In this document: positions 30,568-48,135 of the stretch, piece after piece
Layout of the letters: every line of letters begins with the position of its first letter
Position numbering within the stretch: the first letter of the stretch is position 1
Translations under genes and position numbers: made by a program
Source of the DNA: Salinigranum marinum
GTDB lineage: Archaea; Halobacteriota; Halobacteria; Halobacteriales; Haloferacaceae
Assembly: GCF_024228675.1 (NCBI RefSeq)
Contig: NZ_CP100463.1
Location: 248,001 to 312,000, forward strand
Reading direction: 5' to 3'
Length of the DNA stretch: 64,000 nucleotides
Notes under the pieces: model-generated
Database searches by the model: none
What the model saw: only the letters and a program-made list of their open reading frames with translations
Told to the model about the DNA's origin: nothing

Positions 30568-32221
30568 CGGATTACATTTCGCCGGATTGCTCGACGGTTA
30601 TATGCTCAGTGGCCAGCGTACGAGTCGACACCACTGTACGATCGAACGTCGCTCGCTGGACTGGAGTCAGATGTGCGAGTAGTCGCAAAGACGTGGGTCG
30701 AGCATGAGAGCCACGACTCGGTCGAGGAGTTCGTCTGTGCACTCCCGCTAGCCTACTTCCGGTTCAATGCCCACGATCGGTATAAGCGGTCGACACGCTA
30801 CTAGATGGACACCCTCTTTCGGGTGTTCGCCCTGAAGGAACTCCACGGGTGGGAGCATGAAACCGCACTCGTCGACCACCTCGGGAACCGTCCTGAACTT
30901 TGCGAGCAACTGGGTTTCGAGACGATCCCGGACCAGTCAACAATGTGGAGAAGCTGGCACCAGCGGTTCACCGCTGACCTCAGGGGGACAGTCGAGACGG
31001 CGACTCGAACGATCCTCATCAAAGCCCAGAATACAGGTGTCGCGATTCCGCGTGAACCGGCACGGAAGCTCCGATACCATGGGAGGCAGTCTGGTGGGTT
31101 AGAACTCGACGATTAAACTACCGTTAGAGCAGGCAGAGAAGATCACCGACGACGTCAGCCGCATTGTCTTCCCGGCATTCTCGCTAGATCGAGGCGAGGG
31201 CTGTGAGATCCACGAGAACACCTACTGGGACTTGCAGACGTATCTGGGGCTTCGCGAGGGGCTGGCTGCTAACGAAGGGGCACGCAATTTCGTCGACGAA
31301 TCGACTCGGGATCGGACGCCGCTGGGCCACGCCCACCGTGAGCACATTCGTGACCTCTCAGTATCAGAGATTCGTGAGATGTACCGACAGGCAGTTAATA
31401 TGCTCCTGAACTGGGTCGCGGAGACGGAGCAGTTCTTTCGAGCGGGCATCGTCGCGGTCGACATCACTGAAGCAGATCCCTTCACGGGTGATCGGACGGG
31501 GTACAAGGACGAGATAATCGGGACGACGGAGAAGACCGACGAGTACGCCTACCAGTGGGCGACAGTCCAATTAGTCGGCAACGCTGTCCCGATTGTGCTG
31601 GACGCACGGCCAGTCCGGAAGGGTGAATCTCGCTTAGAAATCGTCGAGGATCTCTTGGATTCGGCCGAGGAGCTGGTTCACGTCGACAACGTGCTGATGG
31701 ATCGCGAGTTCGACAGCCAGCACATTTTAACAGATGCTCAGCCAGCGTGGCTTGTCGTATGTCGTGCCCAAGCGGATGCAGACCAGCGAAAAAGCCCAAG
31801 CGAAGCGCCTCCTCAAACGGGAAAGGACCGATACGAAACTGACCGGAAGTTGCATCTCGGCAAGAACGAGTGGCACGAGACGACGCTGATCTACCGGCGG
31901 AAAGAGAACTTTGAGCACGATGACCACCGGCAGTACTCGGTGTTTATGTCGAATCGAGGCAGCGGGCATCTCACCGAGTATGGGTATCGGTGGGAAATCG
32001 AGAGTGGCTACAAGTCGATCAAGCGGTTCATGGCTGCGACGACCTCGAAGAATTTTGGGCTGCGGTTCTTCTACTTCGCGTTTGCCTGTCTGTTGTACTC
32101 TATCTGGCGAGCGGTTGATCTCCTCGTCCAAGTGGCATTAACCGATGAGTACGAACACGCCCCGGTCGTGACAGCGGACAACACGCTGACGCTGCTGAAG
32201 AAGGAAACCGGAACCGGGTAG
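30568..32221 (+). pseudogene. IS4-type transposase, stop and frameshift (nested-element host)
   Basis: The N-terminal part (DSVEEFVCALPLAYFRFNAHDRY) is broken by TAG at 30802-30804, continues in frame (MDTLFRVFALKELHGWEHE) to 31116, then shifts frame and runs from about 31190 to 32221. Catalytic parts are visible: first Asp in AVDITEADPF, second in VDNVLMDREF, and a perfect IS4 YREK signature Y-x2-R-x3-E-x6-K in YGYRWEIESGYKSIK. Close relatives, all decayed, lie at 37040-37219 and 50941-51643. The element's tail is itself interrupted by the ISH1-like IS at 32330. Confidence 0.85.
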
Positions 32222-36677: not shown

Positions 36678-37031
36678 CTATCGAATCGATTCGATATGGA
36701 GCGGCCTCATCCGATGGGCCACAGGAGGTGTAGCGCAACCCCAGTTGAATACCCTCAGTCGGTAGTTCGTGTTGGCTGCATCGTAGCACTGCATCGGCCA
36801 CTGTCCTCCTGAGATGGAGTACAAAGTCTCGTCAATCAGATCAACAACTGGATCAGTAAAGATGCCGTCGCTCTCTCGGGGGTTGCCGTCCCTCATGGAG
36901 AATTGGAACGCGGATCTTCTCCGGCACGTTACGATAGTGCCGTCCAGTGACTCGAACGAAACGGGTACATTATCGATCAGGATCTGGCCGTCTTCGGTCA
37001 CGGGACCGACTTCGAGTTCGGCGATTCTCAC
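36678..37031 (-). CDS. Hypothetical protein
   Basis: A possible 117-residue protein from GTG 37031. It has alternating hydrophobic segments (QILIDNVPVSFESLDGTIVTC; DPVVDLIDETLYSISGGQW) and a normal amino acid mix, but its start abuts the IS4-type remnant at 37040, so the N-terminus may have been cut. Family not recognised. Confidence 0.4.
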   Translation of the reverse strand: MRIAELEVGPVTEDGQILIDNVPVSFESLDGTIVTCRRRSAFQFSMRDGNPRESDGIFTDPVVDLIDETLYSISGGQWPMQCYDAANTNYRLRVFNWGCATPPVAHRMRPLHIESIR

Positions 37032-37039
37032 GATACGAC

Positions 37040-37219
37040 CGTCTCCGGAACTTTGGACTGCGATTCTTTTATTTCGCGTTCGCGTGTCTCCTGTACTCGA
37101 TCTGGCGCGCAGTTGACTTGCTCGTACAGGCCGAATTGATTGGAGGGTGCGAATATTCGCCGGTGGTGACGGCAGATAATACGCTGACGCTGTTGAAGAA
37201 GGAGACAGGGATCGGGTAG
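37040..37219 (+). pseudogene. C-terminal remnant of the IS4-type transposase
   Basis: From about 37055 the plus strand reads LRFFYFAFACLLYSIWRAVD then LLVQAELIGGCEYSPVV and TADNTLTLLKKETGIG, matching the last 55 residues of the transposase ending at 32221 with a few substitutions. Everything upstream of the C-terminal helix region is gone. Confidence 0.85.
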
Positions 37220-37739: not shown

Positions 37740-38579
37740 ATGCACGCACCTGCCGAAACCATCGCAACCAGTATGTCCATTCCGGACGTTGCCGAGCGGC
37801 TCAAGGCAATCGATGACAATGCGGTCGTGGTCCTACGGGATACTGAACCAGTCGGTATCATCACGCGAACTGATCTCGTCGATGCCCTCGCCGCAGGAGA
37901 GAACCTAGAGGGGCAAACAGCCGAGAGCGTCATGTCGCATCCTCCGATTACGGTTTCCGAATCGGCACCGATCCAGATGGGTGCCGCGACGTTGTACGAA
38001 CACGACGTCGATCAAGCACTCGTGATGGAAGGTGAGGCTATCGTCGGGTTGCTTCGGACGAGCGAGCTGACACCCTATCTTTCCGACTGTGCGATAAATC
38101 GCCCGGAGGAACCACTCGAAGCCGAGGAGCGTGAGTGGGAGTCCGAGTACGACGACGAAACGATGCCCGGCATCTCCGTCGGCGACGTGGTCAGGTTCAG
38201 CAAACCGATCACCGAGCGCGACCTCGAACTGTTCGCCGAGATCAGCGGTGACAAGAATCGACTCCACCTCGACGAGGCGTTCGCCGAACAGACTCGATTT
38301 AAACGTCGCATCGTCCACGGTGCACTCGCCTCAAGTGTGATCAGTGCTGCCCTGTCGAAACTACCTGGGCTCGTCATCTATCTCAGTCAGAATGTGACGT
38401 ATAATGCCCCGGTCGAGATCGGTGAACGGGTCACTGCACGGTGTGAAGTGATCGCAGAGCTCGGTCACAATCGGTATCGCCTCAGGATCGAGGAATTCGA
38501 CGAAAACGACACCGAAGTCATCAGTGGTGAAGCGGCTGTTCTCATCGATGCACTTCCCGAAGCAGAGCCAACGACCTAA
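37740..38579 (+). CDS. CBS-pair plus MaoC-type (R)-enoyl-CoA hydratase fusion
   Basis: A 279-residue fusion. Residues about 1-120 are two CBS motifs (DNAVVVLRDTEPVGIITRTDLVDAL; DVDQALVMEGEAIVGLLRTSEL), a module that senses adenosine nucleotides or S-adenosyl ligands. Residues about 140-270 are a MaoC/hotdog hydratase with the hydratase-2 motif (EISGDKNRLHLDEAFAEQTRF and RIVHGALASS). (R)-specific hydratases (PhaJ) supply (R)-3-hydroxyacyl-CoA from beta-oxidation for PHA synthesis, which fits phaE and phaC 400 bases downstream. The CBS part suggests control of monomer supply by energy charge; this is inference. Confidence 0.85.
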   Translation: MHAPAETIATSMSIPDVAERLKAIDDNAVVVLRDTEPVGIITRTDLVDALAAGENLEGQTAESVMSHPPITVSESAPIQMGAATLYEHDVDQALVMEGEAIVGLLRTSELTPYLSDCAINRPEEPLEAEEREWESEYDDETMPGISVGDVVRFSKPITERDLELFAEISGDKNRLHLDEAFAEQTRFKRRIVHGALASSVISAALSKLPGLVIYLSQNVTYNAPVEIGERVTARCEVIAELGHNRYRLRIEEFDENDTEVISGEAAVLIDALPEAEPTT

Positions 38580-38813: not shown

Positions 38814-38994
38814 GCACGGGAAACGCCCCACTCTTGAGAGCCGTTGTACCGCCACAGGAATCACTGTTTGTGTGCATGTAACACACTGTCTGTACTATCG
38901 ACCCGAGCGCCTATAATCGCACGCACCCCGTCCGCTATCGGCTGGACGCGACCTCCCAGAACAGCTATCTGTTAAAATCACGTTGTGTGTACGT

Positions 38995-39576
38995 ATGGAT
39001 ACCGCACCCGAGTACTCGCTGTTTCCCGGGTGGGAACGAGCCGTCGAATGGCAGTACGAGGCCGCGCGGGCTACCCTGGAACGGTCGCTCGGGGTGCAGC
39101 GAACTGTCGTCAACAGCTGGGTAAAGGCCGCCGAATCGACTGTTCCCCCTGAGACGCCACAACGGGCACACCTTCGCCGTCTCGAGTGGGGATACGATAT
39201 CTGGGAAGAGGCCCTGTTGAACACGCTCGTGCATCTGGACGACGCAGTCTCGGAGGAGGGAATCGACCTGCGACAGCTCCAGATGACCTGGCTCCACGCG
39301 ATGGACGACGCGTTCAGTGAAGTGATGAGCCGCCCCGTGTTCGCAGCGGGAATAAACGACACGCTTGAGGATGCACTCACCGAGCAACAACAGCTGAGCC
39401 ACCTTCGGCGGGACCTTCTCTACGCATCAAACCTTCCGACGGATCGCGATGTCGAAGCGGTGGGCGAGCGGTTGCTCGATCTGGAAGCTCGCCAGAAGAA
39501 AATCGAAGAGAAACTCGACATGATACTCGACGCGGCCGACATAGAAGAAGCGACACACTCTGGAGTGGTCGAATGA
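38995..39576 (+). CDS. phaE: PHA synthase subunit PhaE (class III, haloarchaeal)
   Basis: A 193-residue PhaE-type subunit, needed with PhaC for active class III polyhydroxyalkanoate synthase. Helical throughout; [20 protein letters not shown] near the start, [35 protein letters not shown], and a C-terminal coiled coil ([19 protein letters not shown]). Identification rests on this pattern and the coupled downstream phaC (four-base overlap). Start at 38995 rather than 38983 since MDTAPEYS resembles relatives. Confidence 0.87.
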
Positions 39577-40664
39577 GTTCCTTCCCCGACCCCCTCATAG
39601 CCACCATCGATCTCCAGCGACAGCTCGTCGAGGAGATCCTGGACATCGATAGAAAGGCCGAGGAGTGGCCCGAGCGACTCCAGGAGATCGAGCACGCGGA
39701 TGTCGGGCAAACGCCTCACGACGTCGTCTACGAGGAGAACAAGCTCGAACTATTGCACTACGAGCCGCTGGTCGATGAGGACGAACGACACGACGTCCCG
39801 CTGCTTTTCGTGTACGCGCTCGTCAACCGGCCGTACGTTCTCGACCTGCAGTCGGATAAGAGCGTCGTCCGGCGGTTTCTCGAACACGGGTTCGACGTCT
39901 ATCTCATCGACTGGAACGAACCGTCGACACTCGACCGCCGACTGTCGCTCGATCACTACGTCAACGTCTACATCGATAACTGCGTGAACGTGGTTTGCGA
40001 ACGCGCCGGTCGGGAGACGATCAACCTCTTCGGCTACTGTATGGGCGGCACGATGAGCACGATGTACGCCGCCCTGCACAGAGAGAAGATCCGGAATCTC
40101 GTGTTGCTCGCGACGGGCCTCCAGTTCGACGGCCATGCGGGTGTCTTGGAGCAGTGGGCCGACGGCTACGATCCAGAGGCCGTCACCGATACCTTCGGGA
40201 ACGTGCCGGCGGAGTTCCTTTCCGCCGGCTTCGCGGACATGAATCCAATCAACAACTACGTAACGAAATACGTACAACTGTACCGGAAACTCGACGACGA
40301 AGCGTTCGTCGAGAATTTCGGCCGGATGGAACGCTGGCTTCGCGAAGGCGTTGACGTTGCGGGAAAGGCCTACGCCCAGTTCCTCGAGGACCTCTATCAG
40401 AACAACGAGCTCTACGAGAACGAATTTACACTCGATGGAACCCACGTCGACATTCAGAATATCGACATGCCCGTCCTCCAGGTCGTCGGGGAGTTCGACA
40501 ATCTCATCCCGCCCGCAGCGAGTAAACCGTTCAACGACGTGATTCCGAGCAACGACTCCGAGATTATGGAGTTCCCGTCGGGACACATCGGACTTGCAGT
40601 GTCGGACAAATCCCACGCCGACCTCTGGCCTAGGGTGTGCGAATGGCTCGAACGGCGCTCGTGA
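39573..40664 (+). CDS. phaC: PHA synthase subunit PhaC (class III)
   Basis: A 363-residue alpha/beta-hydrolase-fold polymerase that joins 3-hydroxyacyl-CoA units. The catalytic triad is complete: Cys156 in the lipase-like box FGYCMGGT, Asp309 in [11 protein letters not shown] and His338 in [10 protein letters not shown]. Length and the [20 protein letters not shown] block match the haloarchaeal class III group; no C-terminal extension of the kind found in some haloarchaeal PhaC is present. Overlaps phaE by four bases (ATGA), so the subunits are co-translated. Makes polyhydroxybutyrate-type granules with PhaE. Confidence 0.95.
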
Positions 40665-40715: not shown

Positions 40716-40889
40716 CTAGAACTCGACGACGCTGATCCACCCCTCGTCGACACACCGCGGGCAGTGATCTTCCTCGCGGTCCGCCAGGCAGGCTCGATGA
40801 AACCGGACGTGGCAGTGCTCACACTCGACGATGTCGTCGGCCCGCTCGAACGGTTCTCCGCAGATGTAACATTGCTTTGAACCGACCAT
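40716..40889 (-). CDS. 57-residue RING/PHD-like C4HC3 zinc protein
   Basis: Minus-strand ATG 40889 to TAG 40716. The order of zinc ligands is C7-x2-C10-x12-C23-x2-C26-x4-H31-x2-C34-x8-C43-x2-C46, read from QCYICGEPFERADDIVECEH and CHVRFHRACLADREEDHCPRC. This C4HC3 cross-brace order is that of RING-variant and PHD fingers. The protein is otherwise only the finger plus a ten-residue tail. It converges on phaC with 51 bases between stops. Function unknown: it could mediate protein-protein contacts; a ubiquitin-type role with archaeal SAMPs would be speculation. Confidence 0.75.
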   Translation of the reverse strand: MVGSKQCYICGEPFERADDIVECEHCHVRFHRACLADREEDHCPRCVDEGWISVVEF

Positions 40890-41175
40890 GGCCGAGTAGA
40901 CGACGGGCAGAGAGAAAAATCTTCAGTCAGTGACGTATCGATGACTCGCTGCTGTGGCCGCTCGTTGTCTTCGTCGTAGCTCTGGTAGCTCTGCTGAAAC
41001 CGCTAATGGGTGATGGGCTTCAGTGGTCGTGCTGAGTAGTGGCGCGTATCTTGTACGTGGTGTTAGACGGACTCGAATTCATCCCACCGGACTGCTCAAT
41101 GGCCACACTGACACGAGCTGCTCTAAAGCTTTTGTGCGGCACTGACGCCGAGCTGTGGGGTGTGGCGGTCAAACA
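40890..41175. other. Gene-free interval
   Basis: Between the zinc protein and the transporter scrap beside atpG. No supported gene or repeat. Confidence 0.4.
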
Positions 41176-41280: not shown

Positions 41281-42168
41281 TCAACCGTCGGATGGTTCAT
41301 CCATCGCGTCGAACCCGCTGATCACCTGCAGGAGAGCCTGTGTCTCGGCGTGCCTTCGGGCCCACTGCAGCTCTCGCCGCAGGTCGTCCGTACGGTCTTG
41401 GACGTGATCGACGGCCACACGCATCGTGCGGATCCGGGCGAGTTGCTCGCTCGCCGATGAGTGCAAGACGGCATCGTAGAGCTCGACGAGGAAGCGCTCG
41501 GTGACAAGGTGCCGCACGAACGCTTCCAGGTCCTCAGACGCGTGAACGGGAACGCGAGGAGCAGCTCTATCGGCAGCACCCGGTTCGATCGGCCAGAGGG
41601 CCTTCTCGACCGTCTCGTACTCGAACCCTTGGGCGGGTCGGTGGTGGACGACGCACAGCCCGTCGAGGTGATCCCCCGCGAGGAGCTCCAAGAGCTCGAG
41701 TGCGAGTTCCTCCACGCGCACGTAGGGGGGAACGTTGAACGAGGGCAGCGAGCGGCTGAACGTCGGCTCGAACCCCCGCTGTGAGAGGACGCGGGAGGCT
41801 TTCGATCCGAGGACCAGGGGCACGGCGTGTCGCCCGTCGTCCTCGACCCGATCGAGCGTTCGTTGGAAGGTGTCGAGCGCTTGCTCGTTGAACGGTCCGC
41901 ACAGGCCCCGTTCGGACCCCACGAGGAGCACGCCGGTCCGTTGACCCGCCCCTTCGCCGAGCAGCCGCGCCCGCTCCGTCGCGGAGAGTTCTCTCGTCGC
42001 GCCTCGAAGCATGCGCGAGATATGTGCCTCGTAGATGTCCAACGGCTCCGAGCGTTCGTCGGCGCGTCGGTAGGCGACCTCCGCGACGGAGCGGATCGCC
42101 CGCATGAGTGGCTCCAAGCCGGAGACTGCACCGAGATGATCCTCGATCTGGATCGGCTCGCGGCTCAC
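41281..42168 (-). CDS. atpG: N-ATPase gamma subunit
   Basis: A 295-residue central-stalk subunit. N- and C-terminal helices form the coiled coil (LEPLMRAIRSVAEVAYRRAD; ARIRTMRVAVDHVQDRTDDLRRELQWARRHAETQALLQVISGFDAM) and the Rossmann-like middle carries SERGLCGPFNEQ, the family signature. Slightly shorter and more divergent than bacterial gamma, as usual in N-ATPases. GTG start at 42168 overlaps the atpA stop (GTGA). Last gene of the operon. Confidence 0.9.
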   Translation of the reverse strand: MSREPIQIEDHLGAVSGLEPLMRAIRSVAEVAYRRADERSEPLDIYEAHISRMLRGATRELSATERARLLGEGAGQRTGVLLVGSERGLCGPFNEQALDTFQRTLDRVEDDGRHAVPLVLGSKASRVLSQRGFEPTFSRSLPSFNVPPYVRVEELALELLELLAGDHLDGLCVVHHRPAQGFEYETVEKALWPIEPGAADRAAPRVPVHASEDLEAFVRHLVTERFLVELYDAVLHSSASEQLARIRTMRVAVDHVQDRTDDLRRELQWARRHAETQALLQVISGFDAMDEPSDG

Positions 42169-43757
42169 GCTCGCTCCTCCGTGTTCTGGGTGACGTCTTC
42201 TTCTTGTCCTCTGTCACCCTCGCCTGTCCCTTCGCTGTCTCGGAGCTCGTCCGGCTTGGCCGCCTCGAGGGAAGCCCCGACCCAGTCCCGTAGGCGCTCC
42301 TCGAGCTCTGGCGTGATCGTGTCGGCGCTCCGTAGATCCTCAGCGATCCCCGGTACCTCGTCCTGATGGTCTTCCAACGCGTCCTCGAACCCCGGCACCG
42401 CCTCAGCCGGCCAGCCCTCGAGCAGATTTTCCTGGTGCGTCCACAGGAGCGCTACTTGGATGGGGAGATCCGCGATCTCGCGCGGCTCTTGCTGGATGAT
42501 CTCGACGAGCCGTTCCCCGCGAGCGATCTGCCGCTTCGTCGATTCCTCGATGATCGCGCCGAACCGCGTGAACCCCTTGACCTCCTCGTACTGGGATAGT
42601 TCGGGTCTGACCCGCGCGGCGACCTCCTGGAGCGGTCCCGGCTGGGCGTCCCCGCCCACCCGAGAGACCGACTGGCCGACGTCGATGGCGGGGCGTCGAC
42701 CTTCCGCGTACAGGTGGGGGTCGAAGTAGAGTTGGCCGTCGGTCATCGAAATCAGGTTCGTCGGGATGAAGGCGGTGATGTTCCCACGTTGGGTCTCGAT
42801 GATCGGCAACGCGGTGGCCGAGCCGCCACCGTGCCGGTCTTCGAGCTTGAAGGAACGCTCCATCAGGCCCGCGTGAACCGAGAAGATATCGCCGGGGTAG
42901 GCCTCGCGACCGGGAGACCGTCGCAAGAGGAGGGACAGTTCGCGATACGCGTTCGCGTGCCGAGACAGGTCGTCGTATACGACGAGACTGTGGTCTCCTT
43001 GCCAGGCGAACCACTCGGCCATCGTGCATCCGGTCAAGGCGGAGAGGTAGCGCACGGACGCGGGGGCATCAGCGGGGGCGAACACGACCGCAGTGTGGTC
43101 TAGGGCGTCGTGACGGTCGAGCTGGTCGACCAGATTCAGGACGGTCGAACGCTTCTTGCCGATGCAGACATAGATGCAGTCGACGTCCTCGGTCCCCTGT
43201 GCGAGGATCGCGTCCACCGCGGTGCTGGCCTTCCCCGTGTTCCTGTCACCGAGCAGAAGCATACGCTGCCCGCGCCCAATCGGGGTCGCGGTATCGATCG
43301 ACTTGATGCCGGTGAGCAGGGGCCCACGGATCGGCTGACGGTCAAGCGGCCCCGGGGCAAGCTGGCGGATCTCCCGGCGTTCCGTCGTACCGAGCGCTCG
43401 CTCTCCGTCCATGGGTTGCCCAAGCGGGTCGACCACGCGTCCAAGGATCTCGGACCCGACGGGGACCCGGAGCGTTTCCCCCGTGCGGCGGACCGTGGAC
43501 CCGGCCTGGACTCCTTCGGTGGCCCCGTAGATGGCCACGCCGACGCTCTCTTCGTCGAGATCGAGAACCTCCCCCCTCGTCCCGTCTTCGAAGGCGACTA
43601 GCTCGTGGAGCATCACGGTAGGAAGGCCTTCGACGTGAGCGATCCCGTCGCCAACGTGCAGGACGCGCCCGACGTCCTGGACCGACGCTTGGACGCGACG
43701 CGGCGGGCCGTTCTCGAGAGCCTCGAGAGCCTCCTGGAGCGCTTTGTCGAGGTCCAT
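42165..43757 (-). CDS. atpA: N-ATPase alpha subunit
   Basis: A 530-residue non-catalytic nucleotide-binding subunit. Features: beta-barrel start (RVQASVQDVGRVLHVGDGIAHVEGLP), P-loop at 170-178 reading GDRNTGKAS where classical alpha has GDRQTGKT, SALTGCTMAEWF, DLSRHANAYRELSLLLRR with GREAYPGDIF, and VSRVGGDAQ. The helical C-domain ends in an acidic tail. The change of the P-loop Thr to Ala (Ala177) may weaken Mg binding at the non-catalytic site. Start overlaps the atpF stop (TGATG). Confidence 0.95.
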   Translation of the reverse strand: MDLDKALQEALEALENGPPRRVQASVQDVGRVLHVGDGIAHVEGLPTVMLHELVAFEDGTRGEVLDLDEESVGVAIYGATEGVQAGSTVRRTGETLRVPVGSEILGRVVDPLGQPMDGERALGTTERREIRQLAPGPLDRQPIRGPLLTGIKSIDTATPIGRGQRMLLLGDRNTGKASTAVDAILAQGTEDVDCIYVCIGKKRSTVLNLVDQLDRHDALDHTAVVFAPADAPASVRYLSALTGCTMAEWFAWQGDHSLVVYDDLSRHANAYRELSLLLRRSPGREAYPGDIFSVHAGLMERSFKLEDRHGGGSATALPIIETQRGNITAFIPTNLISMTDGQLYFDPHLYAEGRRPAIDVGQSVSRVGGDAQPGPLQEVAARVRPELSQYEEVKGFTRFGAIIEESTKRQIARGERLVEIIQQEPREIADLPIQVALLWTHQENLLEGWPAEAVPGFEDALEDHQDEVPGIAEDLRSADTITPELEERLRDWVGASLEAAKPDELRDSEGTGEGDRGQEEDVTQNTEERA

Positions 43758-44644
43758 CAGCTGGCCTCCCCTCCGTTCCCTTGAGGCGTGCGTGGCCGCT
43801 CCTCGTCCTGAGCTGCCTCCTCACCGCTGGGAGCGTCTCGACGCTCGTCTCCATCAGCTTTTTTCTCCTCGGTCGTCCCCCCGGTCACCGCTTCGAGAGC
43901 GTGCTTCACGTTCAAATCCAGGGCGACGCCCCCGGAGAGCAGGGTGAGACCGGCCACCAGCTCCGGGTCTTCCTCGACAGTGAGCTCGAGTTCGGGGACC
44001 GAGGACTCGTCGTCCCAGGGAAGGTGGTCCCCCAGGTTCTCCCGCAGGCGCTGTAGATCGTTCGCCTCGAGCGGATACGCCGTTCGGACCCGGACAGCCC
44101 CGTCCGCCTTGCGGATGGCGTCCGCGAATCGATCAAGATCTGCGTCCCGGAGATCGTCCTCCCCGCTCAGGAACCGGCCGACGAGCTGGTCGTGCAATGC
44201 TTCCCCGCCCGTCTCTCGGAGCAGGTCCTGAACCAGCTTGACGGCGGTCTGGCGGGCGCGCTCTTGGATCCGCTCTCGCGCGGCCTGCTCCTCGCGCCGG
44301 ATTCGTTCGTTTGCCTCTTGACGGATATCTGCGGCGTCCTCTCGGGCCTGATCGAGGATTTCTTCCCGTCTCTCGGCGGCCTCCTCACGGGCTTCCGTGC
44401 GGATCTTCTCTGCCTCCTCCTGAGCCTCCTCGAGTTTCTCCTCGAGTTCCTCGCGTTCCCGCTCGGCCGCTTCAGCACGCTGTTTCGCATCCGAGATCTC
44501 GGATTCGATCTCCTCCTCCCGTTCCGTCATCTTCTTCCTGAGCGGTCGGTAGAGAAACCGCTGGAGGATCGCGAGAAGGATCAGGAAGTTCAGCGCCTGG
44601 AGGAAGATCGTCGTCCAGTCCACGCCGATACCGATCTCCGGCAC
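43757..44644 (-). CDS. atpF: N-ATPase b subunit with delta-like C-terminus
   Basis: A 295-residue peripheral-stalk protein. Single transmembrane helix (TTIFLQALNFLILLAILQRFL), a long charged coiled coil (about 40-150; AEAAEREREELEEKLEEAQE), and a C-terminal globular part (about 150-265; VKLVQDLLRETGGEALHDQL; AYPLEANDLQRLRENLGD; PELVAGLTLLSGGVALD) that resembles bacterial delta. N-ATPase operons lack a separate delta gene and have such extended b subunits; none is present here. Acidic tail. GTG start at 44644, one base after the atpE stop. Confidence 0.92.
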   Translation of the reverse strand: MPEIGIGVDWTTIFLQALNFLILLAILQRFLYRPLRKKMTEREEEIESEISDAKQRAEAAEREREELEEKLEEAQEEAEKIRTEAREEAAERREEILDQAREDAADIRQEANERIRREEQAARERIQERARQTAVKLVQDLLRETGGEALHDQLVGRFLSGEDDLRDADLDRFADAIRKADGAVRVRTAYPLEANDLQRLRENLGDHLPWDDESSVPELELTVEEDPELVAGLTLLSGGVALDLNVKHALEAVTGGTTEEKKADGDERRDAPSGEEAAQDEERPRTPQGNGGEAS

Positions 44645-44645
44645 G

Positions 44646-45194
44646 CTATCCCGCCCCCAGGGCCGTCTCGAGCAGCGGGTTTGCGTATAGGAGGATTAGC
44701 GAGACGATCAGCGCGTACAGGGCCAGGGACTCGAGCAGTGCGAGGCTGATGTACAGTGACCGGGAGACATCATCTCGCGCCTCGGGTTGTTCGGCGATGG
44801 ATTCGACCGCCGACTCGACGACCTTACCCTGTCCGATGCTGGCCAGCATCGTGCCCAGGTTGATCGCGACCGCCGCCCCCACGCAGGCGAAAATCAAGAA
44901 CCACATTGCATCGCCGCCCTGGGATGCGGCCTCGCTCACGCGGCCCTCGAGCGGGTTGGCAAACAGCAAGATCAAGGCGACGATCAGAACGTAGAGCGCC
45001 TGGGACTCGATCATGGCCAACCCGATATACAGGGTGCGGGAGACCACGTCCGACTCGTCGGGCTGACGGGAGGTGGCCTTGGCGGCGGCGGCGGCGGCCC
45101 TGGCCTGTCCAATCGCCGGGAAGAGGACGCCCAGCCCGATCGAAACAGCTGCGGTCACGTTGACCACGACGTAGAACCAGGTCGCGGAGACCAT
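44646..45194 (-). CDS. atpE: N-ATPase c subunit, tandem double hairpin, Na+-type
   Basis: A 182-residue rotor-ring subunit with four transmembrane helices: two c-type hairpins in one chain. First hairpin: Gln30 (PAIGQ), Glu63-Ser64 and Tyr68 (MIESQALY). Second: Gln122 (ASIGQG), Glu155-Ser156 and Tyr160 (LLESLALY). In the Na+-binding c ring of Ilyobacter tartaricus the ligands are Gln32, Glu65, Ser66 and Tyr70; the 33-residue Gln-Glu spacing and the +1/+5 positions are reproduced exactly in both halves. Each hairpin has the Arg-Gln-Pro-like loop (SRQPDES; AEQPEAR). Both carboxylates are kept, so ion number per rotation is not reduced by the fusion. Confidence 0.95.
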   Translation of the reverse strand: MVSATWFYVVVNVTAAVSIGLGVLFPAIGQARAAAAAAKATSRQPDESDVVSRTLYIGLAMIESQALYVLIVALILLFANPLEGRVSEAASQGGDAMWFLIFACVGAAVAINLGTMLASIGQGKVVESAVESIAEQPEARDDVSRSLYISLALLESLALYALIVSLILLYANPLLETALGAG

Positions 45195-45865
45195 CACATG
45201 GCCCCCTGGGCGCGCACGGCGCCTCCGATGTACACGATTGTGAGCAGGGTGAAGATGTAGGCCTGCAGCGCCCCGATGAAGAGTCCGAATAGCTCGAAGA
45301 TCACGGGAATTACCAGGGGGGCGACCAGCAGGAGGACTGCGATGATGACTTGGTGGCTGAGCATGTTCGCGAACAGGCGGATCGCCAGCGAGACGGTCCG
45401 CGTGATGTGCCCGAGGACGTTGATGGGGGCGAGGATCCAGGAAGGTTCCGCAAACTGCCGAAGGTACTCGATCCAACCGTGTTCCTGAATGCCGAAGTAG
45501 TGAGTGGCGAAAAAGACGACCAACGCTAGAGCCACGGTCGTATTCAGGTTCGCAGTGGGTGCCTCGAGCAAGGGGAAGGTGCCCATCAGCGCGGCTGAGA
45601 GGATGAACACCGCCAAGGTCGCTACGAGCGGGACGTACCGGTGGCCGGACTCCTTCTCCGTGACCTCGGAGAGCAGATCCTCCAAGTACCGATAGCCCCA
45701 CTCGATCGCGGCCTGCCACTCGCTTGGCCGCGCTTGAACCCGTCGTCCGGCCAAGATGCCAAGTAAGCCGACGACTCCGACCATCCCCGTGGTCTCCAGG
45801 ACAGTCGGGGAGATCAGGAACGCCCCTCCGCCAGGGAGGGGAACTGCGACGAGGATTCCCATCAT
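45194..45865 (-). CDS. atpB: N-ATPase a subunit
   Basis: A 223-residue membrane stator protein forming the ion half-channels. The essential Arg is Arg163 in ITRTVSLAIRLFANMLSHQ, and the C-terminal helix pair ends VIFELFGLFIGALQAYIFTLLTIVYIGGA. Start can be 45865 or 45862 (consecutive Met codons); both overlap the atpQ stop. The stop overlaps the atpE start (TGATG). Translational coupling suggests balanced a and c synthesis. Confidence 0.94.
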   Translation of the reverse strand: MMGILVAVPLPGGGAFLISPTVLETTGMVGVVGLLGILAGRRVQARPSEWQAAIEWGYRYLEDLLSEVTEKESGHRYVPLVATLAVFILSAALMGTFPLLEAPTANLNTTVALALVVFFATHYFGIQEHGWIEYLRQFAEPSWILAPINVLGHITRTVSLAIRLFANMLSHQVIIAVLLLVAPLVIPVIFELFGLFIGALQAYIFTLLTIVYIGGAVRAQGAM

Positions 45866-46187
45866 GATCGCTTCCCCTCCTCGTGTGCCTCGGCGACCAT
45901 GAGGTAAGCTTGGACGGCAGCGATAACGATCCCTGCCCCGAGCAGGCCGAGGGTCAACGTCGGCGTAGTCCCCAGTTGTCGGTCCAGCCACGCCCCCAGG
46001 AGAATCCCAGCCGCCACCGGGAGCGCCAGGACCCAACCGAGGGAGGTCAGGTAGGCCATAGCCTGCCAGAAACTCGCATCCTCGCCCTCCTCGTCGCCGT
46101 TCCCGCGAGAGGGGACGGGCCAACTTCTCGTCGCTCCGGTCGAATCGTCGCCTTGCCTCTTCTCCCAAGGCTTCCAACTGCTTCTTG

Positions 46188-46191
<4 letters not shown>
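45862..46191 (-). CDS. atpQ: AtpQ/AtpI-like membrane protein of the N-ATPase
   Basis: A 109-residue protein with two transmembrane helices (YLTSLGWVLALPVAAGILLGAWL; TLGLLGAGIVIAAVQAYLMVA) and a charged N-terminus. Position between atpC and atpB, and the GAWLDRQLGT loop, match AtpQ, the AtpI-type assembly protein of N-ATPases. The second small membrane protein of such operons, AtpR, would be expected next but atpB follows directly. Overlaps atpC by four bases. Confidence 0.8.

Positions 46192-48135
<1,944 letters not shown>

Follow-up and report, generated by a model that had tools for sequence, protein, structure and literature searches.

A predicted PHD/RING-type zinc microprotein of halophilic archaea linked to an accessory clade of PHA synthases

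Cross-brace zinc fingers, such as the PHD and RING domains, are a hallmark of eukaryotic regulation, and an archaeal finger of this kind with a short fixed tail offers a tractable minimal case. In a cross-brace the four pairs of zinc ligands are interleaved, such that pairs 1 and 3 form one site and pairs 2 and 4 form the other. To call these fingers mostly eukaryotic, as did the sequence-only reading of the locus described here, overlooks the Pfam family Prok-RING_1 (PF14446). The description of that family refers to a ubiquitin-type gene neighbourhood, which is perhaps not required of every member. RINGs that occur together with E2s are known in other archaeal lineages (PMC4327156).

Haloarchaea also encode CPxCG-related zinc proteins, which have fewer than 100 residues and are recognised by a CxxCG or CPxCx motif with a second Cys/His pair 7–40 residues away (PMC2253796). 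The gene of the small haloarchaeal zinc protein Brz adjoins bop, and Brz is required for bop expression; mutants of its Cys/His residues have the same effect as a deletion of Brz (PMC2253796). When 16 genes for single-domain zinc micro-proteins of Haloferax volcanii were deleted, phenotypes arose in 12 cases (PMC6562870), so small genes of this type are commonly functional.

Here, we focus on a free-standing finger protein of 57 residues that is encoded within a 64,000-nucleotide stretch of DNA (termed the window), on a contig of 321 kb, next to a PHA synthase gene. The features to which the text refers are the following.

40716..40889, minus strand: putative zinc microprotein gene (the finger gene), 57 amino acids plus stop, ATG start, PF14446 above cut-off
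40913..40921, minus strand: T-rich element ATTTTTCTC/TTTTTCTC, about 24–32 bases 5′ of the finger ATG, conserved
37740..38579, plus strand: CBS-MaoC protein, (R)-enoyl-CoA hydratase-like, first gene of the PHA cassette
38983..39576, plus strand: PhaE-like subunit, directly 5′ of phaC; PF09712 sub-threshold (19.5 bits against 25.7)
39573..40664, plus strand: accessory class III PHA synthase PhaC, 363 amino acids, assigned by PhaC_N, abhydrolase and tree position

The open reading frame 40889..40716 on the minus strand is translated as MVGSKQCYICGEPFERADDIVECEHCHVRFHRACLADREEDHCPRCVDEGWISVVEF. Its ligands are C7, C10, C23, C26, H31, C34, C43 and C46, or C-x2-C-x12-C-x2-C-x4-H-x2-C-x8-C-x2-C, and the translation therefore confirms the order C-C-C-C-H-C-C-C and the spacings 2-12-2-4-2-8-2 given by the sequence-only reading. 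A conserved C-terminal tail, WISVVEF, completes the protein. Upstream of the ATG at 40889 the frame stays open for 11 more codons, and this ATG is the sole start codon of the frame. The T-rich element has a TTTTC-core that is present in all six copies of the window's subgroup (G1, see below), and it is a plausible TATA box, in which case the finger transcript would be leaderless.

The finger gene is real and under strong purifying selection. The window protein and its plasmid-borne counterpart in Natrinema caseinilyticum are 77% identical (dN 0.12, dS 2.8, dN/dS about 0.04), dN/dS between closer copies of the same group is 0.17–0.41, and the homologues found across Halobacteriales have intact reading frames; a spurious open reading frame is ruled out by these dN/dS values and homologues. 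The GC content by codon position (0.66, 0.40 and 0.78) fits haloarchaeal coding DNA, and a less strict version of the ligand pattern, which occurs once in the real window, did not arise in any of 200 third-order Markov simulations of it. A phage origin was also rejected, there being just three matches in phage records, weak and partial. The expectation that gene callers would miss so short a gene is fair: public plasmid tables leave several relatives unannotated and list others as ‘hypothetical protein’.

Profile searches and structure prediction both bear out the reading of the protein as a free-standing C4HC3 finger of PHD/RING type. PF14446 matches it with 33.6 bits against a curated cut-off of 29.1, while zf-RING_2 (26.1 bits, cut-off 27.3) and the Pfam PHD profile (23.3 bits, cut-off 24) fall just under threshold. 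Run against the sequences in the PDB, a profile of the finger's family retrieves PHD fingers with E-values between 1e-7 and 1e-4 and RINGs with values near 1e-3. The AlphaFold2 model, built on the family alignment with the plasmid-record Natrinema row left out, has moderate confidence (pLDDT 71, with the tail below 50) and the order of elements of a treble clef, namely a β-hairpin, a helix after His-x2-Cys and a helix at the final Cys-x2-Cys. A model of one member of subgroup G3 is poorer (pLDDT 63). The top Foldseek matches in the PDB are the PHD fingers of BHC80 and UHRF1 and the RINGs of RNF165 and Arkadia, with probabilities mostly of at least 0.9 and E-values of 0.03 and higher, and the named matches among viral models are mostly RING domains.

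Two separate zinc ribbons, the outcome that would have told against a cross-brace, were not predicted. In subgroup G4 pair 2 has changed from CxxC to CxC and pair 4 from CxxC to HxxxC, while pairs 1 and 3 stay put; this joint change, which may be a single event, favours a cross-brace over two independent ribbons. The ribbon alternative was dropped on this ground and because cross-brace fingers lead the profile and fold matches. The predicted fold of PHD/RING type is well supported, and a cross-brace that would bind two zincs by interleaved pairs agrees with the matches and with the joint change in G4.

The finger nevertheless differs from each of its nearest relatives. With Prok-RING_1 it shares the paired-ligand pattern and a score above the cut-off, whereas the subgroups G2–G4 of its family fall below that cut-off, and complete copies of the family (52–57 residues) extend past the domain into a conserved tail. 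The PHD fingers of eukaryotes, such as those of MLL4/KMT2D, UHRF1 and DPF3, have the same C4HC3 order and provide the best sequence and fold matches in the PDB; in contrast to these, the window protein is free-standing and lacks a histone-tail context, has a loop of just 8 residues, not a long one, from ligand 6 to ligand 7, and carries D41 at the position, two before ligand 7, of the conserved PHD Trp (often Phe in G3). RING and RINGv E3 ligases share the predicted cross-brace treble clef and the motifs CxIC and CPxC, and RNF165 and Arkadia are among the Foldseek matches, but the His is ligand 4 in C3HC4 RINGs and ligand 5 in the window protein. The ligand spacings of RINGv domains also differ from those of the window finger. 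The CPxCG-related proteins, including Brz and the HVO micro-proteins, resemble the finger in size, halophile origin and CxxCG/CPxC motifs (PMC2253796, PMC6562870), and the window protein, which has CYICG and CPRC within its 57 residues, satisfies the rule of that class. However, members of the class typically have one pattern pair and one zinc, compared with four pairs in cross-brace order, two predicted zincs and a conserved C-terminal tail in the finger.

Relatives are present in other haloarchaea. A profile search found them in 50 of 392 Halobacteriales genomes, although a few of the weakest matches at this level lie within long frames and are perhaps not true members; within one family, inferred to be Natrialbaceae, 41 of 101 genomes have them. 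All 11 positive genomes in a phylum-wide sample of 295 belong to Halobacteriales, to which the finger family is confined in the data searched. When the window protein alone was used to scan genome contigs, Halogranum amylolyticum gave the sole match. The genome that contains the window has a second copy on its main contig, 75% identical to the first.

The complete copies range from 52 to 57 residues, and almost all of them terminate in [IV][GS]xxE[FL]-COOH, downstream of all zinc ligands; one Salinigranum copy ends in GGF. This tail is a mark of the family, since the pattern occurs at 111 of 18,949 open reading frame ends in all fetched loci and every distinct match among those listed is a family member. 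It also provides a concrete bait with which to look for a shared partner. The fold and the Pfam family are known, and what is new is the mark of a halophile-specific subfamily and its gene linkage; the literature searched, which took in few subscription papers, yielded no description of this family or of a link to PHA synthase.

Four groups can be distinguished. G1 comprises the copies from the window, Halogranum, Natrinema and Salinigranum; G2, mostly on plasmids, has the form CYICxS...CEHCG...CHRHC...CPKC; G3 copies are mostly chromosomal, and many sit between birA and tyrS; and G4 is recognised by CxC as pair 2 and HxxxC as pair 4, with Asp replacing His in some copies. The Natrinema copy scores 36.4 bits against PF14446, and relatives in G2–G4 score 15–19 bits or give no match.

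In the window, three plus-strand genes (CBS-MaoC, PhaE-like and PhaC, in this order) precede the minus-strand finger gene, beyond which lies an F-type (N-type) ATPase operon with its 3′ end towards the finger. The phaE-like and phaC genes overlap by 4 bases, and the lipase-like box GYCMGG and the motifs FDNLIPP and GHIGL of PhaC appear intact by eye. The stop of PhaC lies at 40664 and the stop codon of the finger begins at 40716, leaving 51 bp between the two; the genes are convergent, as had been reported from the sequence, and on opposite strands, and so are not co-transcribed. No phaR (AbrB) or phaP gene was found between the CBS-MaoC gene and phaE. The ordinary PHA cluster of the same genome contains AbrB/PhaR, PhaP-like, PhaE, PhaC and reductase genes, matching the order phaJ-phaR-phaP-phaE-phaC of Haloferax mediterranei (PMC10948481).

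The window finger is linked to one clade of accessory PhaCs. Halogranum amylolyticum has the same gene order as the window. In Natrinema caseinilyticum, PhaE–PhaC are convergent with the finger at a distance of about 50 bp and the other flank carries a sulfate permease (sulP) rather than the N-ATPase, so the conserved unit is smaller than the surrounding synteny. A PhaE-like homologue adjoins the finger in Halogranum and Natrinema, and homologous MaoC genes lie beside phaC in the other finger-linked loci. In a maximum-likelihood tree the finger-linked PhaCs, of both the window/Halogranum/Natrinema type and a plasmid-island type, fall within one clade (support 97/95 and 98/95) that is separate from the ordinary PhaCs which these genomes also encode. 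All members with enough flanking sequence have a convergent finger within 2.9 kb (1.6–2.9 kb in the plasmid islands), and no finger occurs in the 1.5–4 kb flanks of PhaCs outside the clade. An exclusive clade of all finger-labelled PhaCs was rejected (p 0.011), but each of the three rows in the clade without a label is a copy extracted with 1.5-kb flanks, and wider extracts of the same loci carry the finger (L030, L032 and L093). One finger-linked PhaC, at L030 (G042:C6:34434-35501), has a single in-frame TGA, so the gene is broken or the assembly contains an error.

Other fingers are found without phaC nearby. In G1 these are on Salinigranum chromosomes or contigs (L022, which adjoins a thiolase gene, L023 and L024), and in G2 there are several plasmid islands (L026–L029 and L091). 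After the finger, the G2 islands encode a cysteine-rich protein of 73 residues, then a SHOCT and a lipoprotein-like protein, and in many islands PhaC and a MaoC protein come next on the other strand; where an ABC operon is present, the finger is transcribed divergently from it. Genes for a plastocyanin-like protein, thioredoxin and a P-type ATPase make up the copper genes around G2 fingers. Most finger–phaC loci are on plasmids, near integrase/ParA and copper genes, and part of the linkage reflects one mobile island copied between plasmids. Since there are fingers without phaC, and since G3 adjoins birA/tyrS, a role in PHA cannot be shared by the entire family. At most one branch has PHA as its target, and what unites all members is the finger and its tail.

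Several neighbours merit a separate description. The 73-residue protein (CAYCGSRIFDHDPICVRDC...CNYACLSTYVD...), found at L036:8019-8240 and with equivalents in about 20 G2 loci, follows the finger in nearly all G2 islands; it has no Pfam match and, by eye, a metal-binding look of YHS/TRASH type. The G3 finger is divergent from the adjoining BirA-type biotin ligase/repressor gene and near tyrS, often with an acyl-CoA dehydrogenase gene, in about twelve loci (L071–L073, L075, L076, L083–L087, L107 and L108), and this setting is a conserved chromosomal synteny in the putative Natrialbaceae family. Two Haloarcula marina plasmid loci (L070 and L097) have no PhaC annotated between the lipoprotein-like and MaoC genes and appear to be decayed islands.

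We favour, at roughly even odds, a reading of the finger as a small docking module whose target, for the window copy, is likely to be the accessory MaoC–PhaE–PhaC cassette. The two zincs would maintain a compact, rigid scaffold, the conserved tail [IV][GS]xxE[FL]-COOH would bind a partner common to the whole family, and the variable loops would give each subgroup its own local target. The window copy would then tune the linked PHA synthase at the level of expression, granule assembly or turnover, and our best guess is that it is a non-catalytic adaptor or local regulator of that enzyme. Tying one branch of the family to an accessory PHA synthase clade makes the proposal testable in halophiles used for bioplastic production. 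A PHD/RING-fold partner dedicated to the synthase, forming a co-evolved branch that replaces PhaR/PhaP and controls activity, granule assembly or turnover, is a more tentative idea that we consider possible but doubtful.

By analogy with Brz, the finger might instead act locally as a transcription (or RNA) regulator of adjacent genes, phaEC in the window and divergent neighbours elsewhere. This is the main rival to the docking module, and a somewhat unlikely one: Brz sets a precedent and the window protein fits the pattern rule of its class (PMC2253796), the cassette lacks phaR, and divergence from the ABC operon in G2 or birA in G3 is an arrangement typical of local regulators, yet there is no helix-turn-helix or other DNA-binding fold, PHD/RING cross-braces normally bind proteins, the window sequence looks acidic by eye, and the subgroups differ in their neighbours. 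The plasmid setting of most finger–phaC loci, close to integrase/ParA and copper genes, raises the question of whether the finger is a passenger, a microprotein with an unrelated link to metals or stress that travels with phaC on a mobile cassette. Copies without phaC exist, and the two Haloarcula marina plasmid copies (L070 and L097) have decayed, with ATG changed to AAG and the His ligand to Leu; however, one deep PhaC clade has kept the linkage across two cassettes with different other flanks, and the finger is under strong purifying selection. We regard a passenger as unlikely.

The link to SAMP or ubiquitin put forward in the sequence-only reading fared worst. An E3-like factor in SAMP-type ubiquitin-like (Ubl) modification could be argued for from the Prok-RING_1 match and the sub-threshold RING families, from I9, a hydrophobic loop-1 residue that lies between the first cysteine and the second, and the Pro of CPxC, both as in RING E3s, and from the SAMP/ThiS-type Ubl genes of the genome (at C1:3.72 and 3.92 Mb). 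Against this, the genome has no match to the E2 domain UQ_con at E≤1, and no Ubl gene adjoins either finger copy, those present being more than 160 kb from the chromosomal copy and on a different contig from the window copy; the latter has PHA and N-ATPase genes, and no ubiquitin-type neighbours, and fingers elsewhere adjoin PHA synthase, copper/SHOCT or birA/tyrS genes. The ligand order is C4HC3, not the C3HC4 or C3H2C3 of RING E3s, and the linchpin Arg/Lys after the last Cys is replaced by V47 (Ile, Gly or Ala in the closest relatives). Moreover, most haloarchaea lack the family, whereas Ubl modification in Haloferax is described with UbaA and MsrA (PMC5587910). With no E2, no Ubl neighbours and no linchpin, the SAMP/E3 proposal was dropped as the main reading and is very improbable; for this small protein, a docking or regulatory role is more probable than that of a ubiquitin ligase.

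The surroundings of the window cassette include two further elements. The F-type (N-type) ATPase operon, which occupies 41281-48093 on this plasmid-sized archaeal contig and encodes gamma, alpha, b, a and beta subunits by eye, adjoins the finger gene in Halogranum too. Near the PHA cassette lie a transposase gene (31232-32221) and a fragment (36947-37219), both of which contain NFGLRFFYFAFACLLYSIWRAVDLLVQ and represent an insertion-sequence remnant.
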